64,000 bases of DNA from positions 1 to 64,000 of the forward strand of contig NZ_PVTH01000006.1 in the NCBI RefSeq assembly GCF_003002875.1, given 5' to 3'. Positions 24,881 through 27,146 of this stretch are shown here, one piece after another; the stretch's first letter is position 1, and every line of letters starts with the position of its first letter. The notes under the pieces are model-generated. The model searched no databases. It saw only the letters and a program-made list of their open reading frames with translations, and was not told where the DNA came from. A program made the position numbers and the translations under genes. This stretch comes from Arcticibacter pallidicorallinus. GTDB lineage: Bacteria; Bacteroidota; Bacteroidia; Sphingobacteriales; Sphingobacteriaceae.

Positions 24881-25597
24881 TCAGATCGATAACGGCAGAA
24901 AGGTTTTAATAATTAATCCCGCGACCAGGGCAAATGTGATACTAATTAATGTGCCGATCAAAACATACTCGCTTCTCTCCTGAGCATTTTTACTCTCTGA
25001 AAAGCGCAAGATCGACTTAGCAGCGGTTAGCAAGGCTATTGCTGCATACTGATTAAAGACAACCAGCACAAATATGATCAGCCGTTCGAGTATCCCAATC
25101 CACTTGCCCGCATCTGCCAGACTGTTTGATGTATCGGCGAGTTGTTCTCGCCACCTGCGGGTCAGCATTCCTATAATGATACCTGATGGTTGAGCCAGGA
25201 ACACCAGAGCAAGCGTTACAGCCCAATAATTCTCATTGTTAAATATGGACTTAAAAGAAGTTGCGATTGCGGGATCGGGTGCGTATAGCAGCAATCCAGT
25301 TACCAGGATAATCAAAAGATGCAGGGCTTGATCCAGCACAAAATACTGTATCCTTTGCGGTTTGTACGACTTCCAGAGATCTATAAAAAAATGTGACAGT
25401 CCAATAACGACGGGCACTATCCAGTTGGTAAAACCATCAAATAAACAAGCTATTAGCACTGTTATAGCAATGTGATAGTAGATATGCCTGGATTTATAAT
25501 GATGCGCATTTCTACCCTCCACCCAGGAATTTGGCTGCAGAGCAAAATCCGTAAGTAGATGTGCAGCAAACATTTTCAGATACCAGAGTAAAAGCAT
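24881..25597 (-). CDS. DUF3307 integral membrane protein
   Basis: A 238-aa membrane protein with about six to seven hydrophobic segments. The N-terminal DUF3307 part has LLLWYLKMFAAHLLTDFALQ, with the polar HLLTDF core, and later IGLSHFFIDLWK and YFVLDQALHLLII. His and Asp recur inside the membrane segments, suggesting metal or proton chemistry. I start at 25597, whose ATG comes one base after the stop of the SatD-like gene (TGA-T-ATG), rather than at 25678 within it. The tight coupling says the two proteins act together. Function unknown. Confidence 0.8.
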   Translation of the reverse strand: MLLLWYLKMFAAHLLTDFALQPNSWVEGRNAHHYKSRHIYYHIAITVLIACLFDGFTNWIVPVVIGLSHFFIDLWKSYKPQRIQYFVLDQALHLLIILVTGLLLYAPDPAIATSFKSIFNNENYWAVTLALVFLAQPSGIIIGMLTRRWREQLADTSNSLADAGKWIGILERLIIFVLVVFNQYAAIALLTAAKSILRFSESKNAQERSEYVLIGTLISITFALVAGLIIKTFLPLSI

Positions 25598-25598
25598 A

Positions 25599-26231
25599 TC
25601 AATCCAGAATATAGTTTGCAAGTTTACGATATATTTGTGAAGCTTTTTCCAGCTGCGACCACTTCCCTGCCTGGGCAAGTTTATTTATAGTGGATTGACT
25701 CTTTTTTAATTTCAAAGCTACTTCCATCTGAGTATAGCCCATCAGTAATTCGCTTACTACTTCTGCCTGCTTTATTGAAAGCTCTTTTAATATCATATCA
25801 GCCAGGAGAGCGAGAGCCTCCATACCCGCTCCAATTTTGTCGTCAGAACAGCGGATAGACAGACGTACTGATGACTTGCTGATGGCATCCAGCTCCCGGC
25901 CTGATAACAGAAACGCTTCCCCTTTTCCTAAAGCCATGCTTTTTATTCCATCCTGCACTTTGCCTAATCCAATGGCGATTCTTATGTCCGCATTCTCTCC
26001 CGTACCCGCATTAGGAATCTGACGCGCCAAAACCCGTAATGATAAAGCCATTTTGAAAGCATCCTTTACATCAGTTAAAAGATGAAAACTGTCGCCTCTG
26101 TAAAACTCGGACGCAACCTTCGCTTTTTTGAATTCCGAGCGAATCATTACGATAAGGTCGTTGAGGTCCTTTCCCTCCATTAAGGATGAATTAACAATAT
26201 CAGCTGTGAGCACCGCTTTATTTGATTCCAT
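25599..26231 (-). CDS. SatD-like regulator: cyclase-fold domain plus HTH
   Basis: A 210-aa protein of the SatD type. The N-terminal domain (5-120) reads like a class III nucleotide cyclase core: Asp11 in LTADIVNSS and Asp47 in YRGDSFHLL sit where cyclases hold their two metals, followed by ADIRIAIGLGKV and GEAFLLSGRELD. The C-terminal part (about 150-195) is a helix-turn-helix (LLMGYTQMEVALKLKKSQST, INKLAQAGKW). I start at 26231 (MESNKAV); longer in-frame forms run into the repeat region upstream. It is translationally coupled to the DUF3307 gene. A 16-bp inverted repeat upstream is a probable operator. Whether it makes or senses a nucleotide is unknown. Confidence 0.8.
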   Translation of the reverse strand: MESNKAVLTADIVNSSLMEGKDLNDLIVMIRSEFKKAKVASEFYRGDSFHLLTDVKDAFKMALSLRVLARQIPNAGTGENADIRIAIGLGKVQDGIKSMALGKGEAFLLSGRELDAISKSSVRLSIRCSDDKIGAGMEALALLADMILKELSIKQAEVVSELLMGYTQMEVALKLKKSQSTINKLAQAGKWSQLEKASQIYRKLANYILD

Positions 26232-26242
26232 ACACGAATATA

Positions 26243-26316
26243 GCCATATATAGCGATTATACAATAATATCGCCTTAAAATACGATAAATTGATAAAATC
26301 GCTATATATGGCGATT
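26243..26316. promoter_or_regulatory. Inverted-repeat operator region between satD-like gene and 26355
   Basis: GCCATATATAGCGATT (26243-26258) and AATCGCTATATATGGC (26297-26312) are perfect inverted copies 38 nt apart. The right copy extends to AATCGCTATATATGGCGATT (26297-26316), itself a palindrome with AATCGC/GCGATT arms. A further half-site, ATATCGCC, lies at 26267-26274. The sites fill the divergent promoter region. An HTH protein encoded next door suggests autoregulation; that link is inference. Confidence 0.65.
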
Positions 26317-27065: not shown

Positions 27066-27074
27066 ATTATTGAG

Positions 27075-27146
27075 CAGTCCTGCTAGGGCTCGAACCTAGA
27101 TCTTCAGAACCAGAATCTGACGTGGTAGCCATTACACTACAGAACT
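27075..27146 (-). tRNA. tRNA-Gln (anticodon CTG)
   Basis: On the minus strand a complete 72-nt cloverleaf can be folded. The acceptor stem is AGTTCTG/CAGGACT with one G-U pair. U8-A9 are followed by a D-arm with GTG/CAC stem and GG in the loop. The anticodon stem is TCAGA/TCTGA with loop TTCTGGT, anticodon CTG. A 4-nt variable loop follows, then T-arm CTAGG-TTCGAGC-CCTAG and discriminator G. The 3' CCA is not encoded. It reads CAG codons. A TATTTTTG promoter box lies 4 nt upstream. Confidence 0.93.

Follow-up and report, generated by a model that had tools for sequence, protein, structure and literature searches.

This work describes a two-gene operon of Arcticibacter pallidicorallinus whose first product, a SatD-like protein, is very probably, judging from comparative sequence evidence, a dedicated autoregulator of the SatD-DUF3307 operon and probably acts as its repressor. 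The window analyzed is a 64,000-nucleotide stretch of contig NZ_PVTH01000006.1 (positions 1 to 64,000). The joint model that we favor, with reasonable though not high confidence, would combine an autoregulator and repressor seated on an operator array, a palm domain sensing nucleotide and metal, and a DUF3307 membrane protein as effector. An autoregulator is taken here as a protein whose helix-turn-helix (HTH) sits on operators at its own promoter, and SatD is assigned to this class indirectly, through the statistics of the arrays and the covariation between HTH and operator.

The SatD-like gene occupies positions 25599..26231 of the minus strand, from an ATG at 26231 to a stop codon at 25599-25601, and encodes 210 amino acids. 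The plus strand carries 18 stops over the same interval; the open reading frame (ORF) listed in the initial annotation is real, and its strand, which that annotation did not give, is now fixed as minus. In the predicted structure, residues 1-130 form a palm of the nucleotide-cyclase type, followed by a linker helix (131-150), the HTH (153-190), and a C-terminal helix (191-209). The motifs picked out earlier are all in place: TADIVNSS (Asp11), YRGDSFHLL (Asp47), ADIRIAIGLG, and GEAFLLSGRELD. The name SatD holds for the relatives but not directly for the window protein, which gave no match to the Pfam SatD models, even at a loose E-value. We retain the name because relatives match PF16264: 46 of the 73 aligned relatives do so at an E-value of ≤0.01 (alignment A1, from which L104, with an N-terminus that is not alignable, is excluded). 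The curated cutoff of PF16264 was reached in 9 of 51 genomes searched, and four of these places are the loci of direct relatives (G002, G007, G012, and G029). Four plasmid-borne relatives from haloarchaea and alphaproteobacteria are annotated as SatD family, whereas the window protein falls short of the model. In G002 (locus L090), a TAG lies inside the SatD match of the genome search, compared with an ORF product of 200 amino acids, and the end of the product may be affected. A SatD search matched 73 of 296 Bacteroidota genomes, including that of the window (one match in 72 genomes and two in one), and all six genomes of the window's genus, again counting the window's own, contain the gene. 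The 74 loci compared below are the window plus 73 fetched loci.

Upstream of the SatD-like gene, the window contains three 20-bp palindromes on the minus strand at a spacing of 29 bp, which we regard as candidate operators. Operator 1 (AATCGCcatatataGCGATT, 26297..26316) lies at −85 from the ATG, operator 2 (TATCGTattttaagGCGATA, 26268..26287) at −56, 29 bp from its neighbors, and operator 3 (AATCGCtatatatgGCTATA, 26239..26258) at −27; the last is the least perfect copy and overlaps a promoter-like element. Across the 74 upstream regions, 133 perfect-arm palindromes of 20 bp were found, compared with 11.6 expected from shuffled sequences. The length distribution peaks at 20 bp, and perfect-arm palindromes of 18, 22, and 24 bp are likewise raised (53, 67, and 47, respectively). 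At least two perfect-arm palindromes occur in 35 of the 74 regions versus 10 of 2,758 control windows. When the period was left free, 56 of the 74 Bacteroidota loci exceeded the 99% null (401 windows), with a period of 28 bp in 35 loci, 29 bp in 20, and 23 bp in one; null periods were spread over 22 to 39 bp.

Because the 20-bp length and the 28- or 29-bp spacing had first been spotted by eye on these same 74 loci, the scan was repeated on 19 further loci, five of which come from the window's genus and two of which (L106 and L108) share one genus. In the 20-bp frame, a period of 28 or 29 bp was above the 95% null in 12 of the 19 and above the 99% null in 10. Four loci (L107, L119, L122, and L124) show this period only in a 19-bp frame, and trying two frames favors hits; L120, L127, and L128 show it in neither frame. 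Comparable arrays precede SatD relatives in proteobacteria and haloarchaea, with arm letters that differ by lineage. The two haloarchaeal loci are nearly identical and have palindromes of the GTTCGCC type at a spacing of 29 bp. At 18 of the 74 Bacteroidota loci, no array exceeded the 99% null; nine of these loci fall in a single clade whose HTH is longer. This genus-level clade (L059, L064, L073, L076, L080, L082, L085, L093, and L100) has a six-residue HTH insertion; by longest ORF, its DUF3307 genes start 1 to 151 bases past SatD, with more than 40 bases in eight of the nine.

Within the 4.1-Mb genome of the window, the paired site with zero or one mismatch occurs solely at the SatD locus. 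At up to three mismatches, it has 20 forward matches versus 7 for the reversed pattern. Further SatD targets in this genome were considered and set aside: the single palindrome matched 6 times in its forward pattern, compared with 5 times for the control, and no other pair with zero or one mismatch was found.

The letters of the operator arms covary with the part of the protein that is predicted to read them. For this comparison, 58 loci were used (L098 was removed; L077, L084, and L097 were re-phased; and L038, L039, and L044 were added, L044 with two sites). In partial Mantel tests, operator and recognition helix are correlated given the N-domain (r = 0.47, P ≤ 0.0005, 2,000 permutations), operator and N-domain are not correlated given the HTH (r = −0.04, P = 0.71), and the stretch before the recognition helix is more weakly associated with the operator (partial r = 0.18, P = 0.002). 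At the level of single residues, Lys or Arg at position 184 accompanies C at arm position 6 in 16 of 16 cases, compared with 1 of 42 for other residues. Gln179 accompanies A at arm position 2 in 52 of 52 cases, and both loci with Arg179 have G there. By visual alignment, a Pseudoalteromonas relative also combines Arg179 with TGT arms. Contacts of Gln with adenine and of Arg or Lys with guanine are textbook recognition chemistry. On the N-domain tree, all seven independent contrasts agree, and 1 of 29 same-class pairs differs. The closest contrast falls within the window's genus, where the window has Lys184 and TCGC arms versus Glu184 and TCGG-type arms in L135. A mutual-information scan that ignores descent associates other columns as well, several of them in the N-domain. 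The prediction that the SatD HTH binds and reads its operators is strongly supported by these comparisons. Taken together, the arrays and the covariation also lend considerable new weight to the earlier suggestion that the protein transduces its signal directly to DNA.

The direction of control is suggested by the position of the promoter. TAnnTTTG is the −7 element of Bacteroidota promoters, and the window has it as a one-mismatch form only (TATATTCG, 26235..26242, minus strand), 3 nt before the ATG. An exact TAnnTTTG lies within −80 to +8 in 30 of the 74 loci versus 51 of 1,314 control windows. Among 55 array loci, 24 have the element near the start; it overlaps an operator copy in 19 of these 24, six of which have it at −12 under the last copy. 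Part of this coincidence arises because the arms often end in ATA. Overlap of promoter and operator favors repression over activation, and from its presence in a minority of loci we infer that SatD would act as a repressor rather than an activator. The arrangement resembles that generally known from autoregulated repressor and type II toxin-antitoxin operons, in which a small HTH gene comes first, an effector second, and palindromes lie over the promoter. It differs from them in the cyclase-fold sensor domain of SatD and in having, usually, at least two evenly spaced operators whose geometry is kept across phyla while their letters vary.

The second gene of the operon (24881..25597, minus strand) encodes a DUF3307 membrane protein of 238 amino acids that matches PF11750 with an E-value of 2.6e-23 and 82.9 bits, compared with a curated cutoff of 23; its ATG, at 25597, is one base past the SatD stop. 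A tRNA-Gln gene (CTG; 27074-27146, minus strand) separates the SatD operon from the next genes. The coupling of the two genes, already proposed in the initial annotation, extends well beyond the window: 72 of the 74 loci have a same-strand DUF3307 ORF no more than 300 bases from SatD, a few of these ORFs being short or cut (e.g., L033, L066, and L104). The two SatD loci lacking DUF3307 are L038, a second SatD copy in a genome that has the full pair, and L103 (4552-3926, minus strand). L103 is also the sole one of the 73 aligned relatives without both aspartates (D11 to K and D47 to N); it is a natural co-loss of the Asp pair and DUF3307, and we count it as tying function to the Asp pair. DUF3307 was found in 75 of 292 genomes, and 69 genomes are common to the SatD (73) and DUF3307 (75) lists. 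Among the six DUF3307 genomes outside this overlap, SatD is adjacent in two and not in the other four. One of the latter loci is a 156-amino-acid ORF, and in G044 DUF3307 has no adjacent SatD, yet a PF16264 match lies on another contig.

The pair is also carried on plasmids. DUF3307 matched 23 plasmid records, and all 10 places inspected have a SatD-profile ORF directly upstream; the hosts include Escherichia coli, Klebsiella, Enterobacter, Pseudomonas, Vibrio, Pseudoalteromonas, Sphingomonas, Segatella, and Fusobacterium, as well as the archaeon Haloplanus. On plasmids of 3.8 kb from E. coli (L119, NC_019077.1) and 4.4 kb from Klebsiella (L124, NZ_LR890364.1), the pair fills nearly half of the molecule, and an identical SatD is present in six 3,770-bp records. 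On a Sphingomonas plasmid (L127, NZ_CP048421.1), it lies near a cyclase-domain protein, a Pycsar-type effector, and a TIR-domain protein. At a Bacillota locus (L200, CP127381.1, 160209-168922), the gene after the SatD relative encodes a DUF975 membrane protein in place of DUF3307, and a ribonuclease/barstar-like pair lies immediately 5′ of the SatD relative. Phage records gave no match for DUF3307 or for the Fusobacterium-type SatD, nor did the E. coli genome collection for the DNA of the enterobacterial cassette.

For the Bacteroidota loci, 453 neighboring ORFs were clustered. From 38 loci, each representing one genus, 154 neighbor proteins were chosen, and 142 of them were compared with PADLOC and NCBIfam; those omitted were 8 long proteins and 4 from L104. 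The idea that the Bacteroidota pair sits in defense islands was rejected, as the recurrent neighbors are housekeeping genes and the PADLOC matches listed include no recurrent defense gene. Those matched in the NCBIfam scan are GltX, DEAD-box helicases, and XTP diphosphatase, and others we take from their sequences to be IMP dehydrogenase-like and PurC/PurF-like. The PADLOC rows among the matches listed (25 of 150 families) are mostly of the helicase type, with mad3 in three members, an RmuC type in two, and type I specificity in one. Purine or nucleotide genes recur near the pair in several genera (L039, L051, L048, L037, and relatives), perhaps by chance; they are presumably PurC/PurF-like, purine nucleoside phosphorylase-like, and IMP dehydrogenase-like, and include XTP diphosphatase.

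Gene order, near-overlap of the two genes, and predicted autoregulation all resemble type II modules, and the alternative that survives best, which we consider possible but improbable, is that the pair forms a toxin-antitoxin-like cassette in which SatD, as an autoregulating antitoxin or repressor, would counter a harmful DUF3307 membrane protein. The small enterobacterial plasmids (3.8 and 4.4 kb) that carry the pair are in keeping with such a cassette, as is the location of the pair close to genes of toxin-antitoxin type on plasmids of Pseudomonas fragi and Agrobacterium. According to a transposon meta-analysis of Streptococcus pyogenes, satD is the single accessory gene (178 of 249 genomes) in the top quarter for essentiality (PMC11323703), which would fit if SatD were an antitoxin or repressed a toxic product. 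Against this stand the four of six extra loci in which DUF3307 has no adjacent SatD and the setting of the Bacteroidota pair, which is nearly always present once per genome, beside genus-conserved housekeeping genes, and in six of six genomes of the window's genus. One Bacillota relative has the DUF975 membrane protein instead. We hold the toxin-antitoxin reading at this low level because DUF3307 can lack an adjacent SatD.

Among the DUF3307 proteins, PF11750 is matched by all 67 aligned members at an E-value of ≤0.1 (alignment A2, which omits 5 of 72 ORFs, L033, L062, L064, L066, and L104, as fragments, a duplicate, or ORFs with unclear starts). Residues invariant in the 67 sequences include H13, D17, Q21, H42, H69, D73, Q90, and H93, as well as E171, R172, K194, and R198. 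The DUF3307 model is all-helical (pLDDT 89.6) and found no match in the PDB, with a best Foldseek E-value of 0.96 and a best VIA Z score of 6.9 at an rmsd of 19.4; a missing PDB match does not establish a new fold. The His/Asp pattern could suit a metal-dependent membrane hydrolase, and DUF3307 is a putative metal-dependent membrane enzyme or ion path or channel.

For SatD, the AlphaFold model (73 relatives) has a mean pLDDT of 96.5 and a pTM of 0.92, with the element order b1-a1-b2-b3-a2-b4-a3-b5 followed by helices and the HTH. The C-terminal HTH, expected from the initial annotation at about residues 150-195, appears in the model as helices 153-163, 168-175, and 179-188, and the cyclase/GGDEF-type fold suggested there for the N-domain was recovered by structure comparison. 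The best 50 of 77 Foldseek matches in the PDB at an E-value of ≤0.001 are all adenylyl/guanylyl cyclases or GGDEF domains (probability 1.00, E-value about 5e-5; the best rows listed are 6eib, a GGDEF domain). The best VIA match among the 50 listed is the Rv1625c cyclase domain (Z 13.5, rmsd 3.0, 141 residues); VIA also aligned GTP cyclohydrolase III (2qv6; Z 12.8, rmsd 2.6 over 112 residues) and the Cas10 palm (Z 12.6, rmsd 3.1 over 131 residues). Profile comparisons agree weakly with this fold, with P = 0.003 for SatD versus 30 class III domains and P = 0.0005 versus 28 GGDEF domains (loci L194 and L199 omitted), against P = 0.63 and 0.85 for two controls and P = 0.011 for class III versus GGDEF domains. 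Probabilities from hhalign to cyclases are only 4% and 13%, a weak link at the sequence level. Neither PF00211 nor PF00990 matched in the window's genome, and both are absent among the matches listed (best 25 of 29 families) for the 73 SatD members. Taken as a model-based assignment, a palm fold of the nucleotide-cyclase/GGDEF/Cas10 type is supported for the N-domain.

The comparison with class III profiles aligns D11 and D47 with the DI and GD motifs of cyclases. Loss of these residues across close homologs, named beforehand as evidence against the cyclase-type core, was not seen: each is kept in 72 of the 73 aligned relatives. Positions 108 and 112 presumably correspond to the transition-state Asn and Arg of class III enzymes, a correspondence set by motif and not by residue-level structure alignment. 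Neither is conserved among the 73 relatives: position 108 is V in 21, I in 19, T in 12, and Q in 9, and position 112 is R in 27, E in 25, and K in 6, so the catalytic Arg is not conserved. Since this pair is not conserved, SatD is unlikely to be a classical class III cyclase, and the proposal that it makes a nucleotide is not supported as stated. The N-domain is instead predicted to be a metal- and nucleotide-binding sensor of cyclase fold. SatD thus shares with class III cyclases (PF00211) the fold, the motif order, and two metal Asp residues but lacks the conserved Asn/Arg and carries a C-terminal HTH. With GGDEF diguanylate cyclases (PF00990), it shares the fold and an RGDSF hairpin resembling GGDEF but not the GGDEF signature. 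GTP cyclohydrolase III and Cas10 palms have a similar fold, whereas their partners and architecture differ from those of SatD.

A cyclase/palm fold with both metal Asp residues and a membrane partner could alternatively indicate a signal-producing system, in which a (cyclic) nucleotide made by SatD would open or activate DUF3307, in a Pycsar-like manner, while the HTH merely tunes expression. The Sphingomonas locus, which adjoins a cyclase-domain protein and a Pycsar-type effector, is compatible with this, as is the inclusion among VIA matches of GTP cyclohydrolase III and Cas10, palm enzymes outside the class III cyclases. We nevertheless regard signal production as doubtful: the class III Asn/Arg positions are not conserved, the 73 SatD and 67 DUF3307 proteins gave no PADLOC match better than an E-value of 3e-4 (2023 library), and the 142 neighbors contain no recurrent defense gene among the matches listed (25 of 150 families). 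Perfect inverted repeats 5′ of a start codon can also fold as RNA, but it is highly improbable that the palindromes are hairpins (attenuators or processing sites) rather than DNA operators, given arm letters that covary with the recognition helix but, after correction for the HTH, show no such link to the N-domain, the strict 28- or 29-bp period, and, where TAnnTTTG lies near the ATG, an array mostly upstream of the likely transcription start.

In the autoregulator model, SatD dimers would bind through their HTH to an array that covers the SatD promoter, with one 20-bp palindrome every 28 or 29 bp. Residues 179-184, which make up the recognition helix, would set the sequence of the operator arms, giving each lineage a private operator. 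The palm may bind nucleotide and metal at the dimer interface, and binding or turnover of the nucleotide may shift the affinity of SatD for DNA. The output would be the amount of DUF3307, the putative effector, acting as a membrane enzyme or channel.

Among the literature matches listed, the titles, abstract openings, and passages describe no operator arrays and no SatD-DUF3307 unit and make no statement of the fold, operators, or DUF3307 coupling of the SatD family; the passages of PMC11323703, PMC10326533, PMC8504454, PMC10210942, and PMC5786311 likewise give no account of the arrays or of the unit. More tentatively, the pair may represent an undescribed and often mobile nucleotide-gated module of bacteria and archaea, in which array-bound SatD restrains a harmful membrane effector and releases it on a nucleotide signal of stress or infection; we give this broader proposal a modest chance. 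If true, it would explain how satD can be essential yet accessory in S. pyogenes. As part of the same proposal, single changes in the recognition helix would repeatedly have altered which operator sequence SatD reads.

With the SatD model, two almost unstudied families, SatD and DUF3307, each named in one paper of a 5.39-million-paper collection, become one system with a testable mechanism, and a palm of the cyclase/GGDEF type joined to an HTH would couple nucleotide chemistry directly to DNA. In the array, operator letters can be read against helix residues as a natural code, which may be useful for studies of repressors. For S. pyogenes, the model yields a direct hypothesis for the status of satD as an essential accessory gene.
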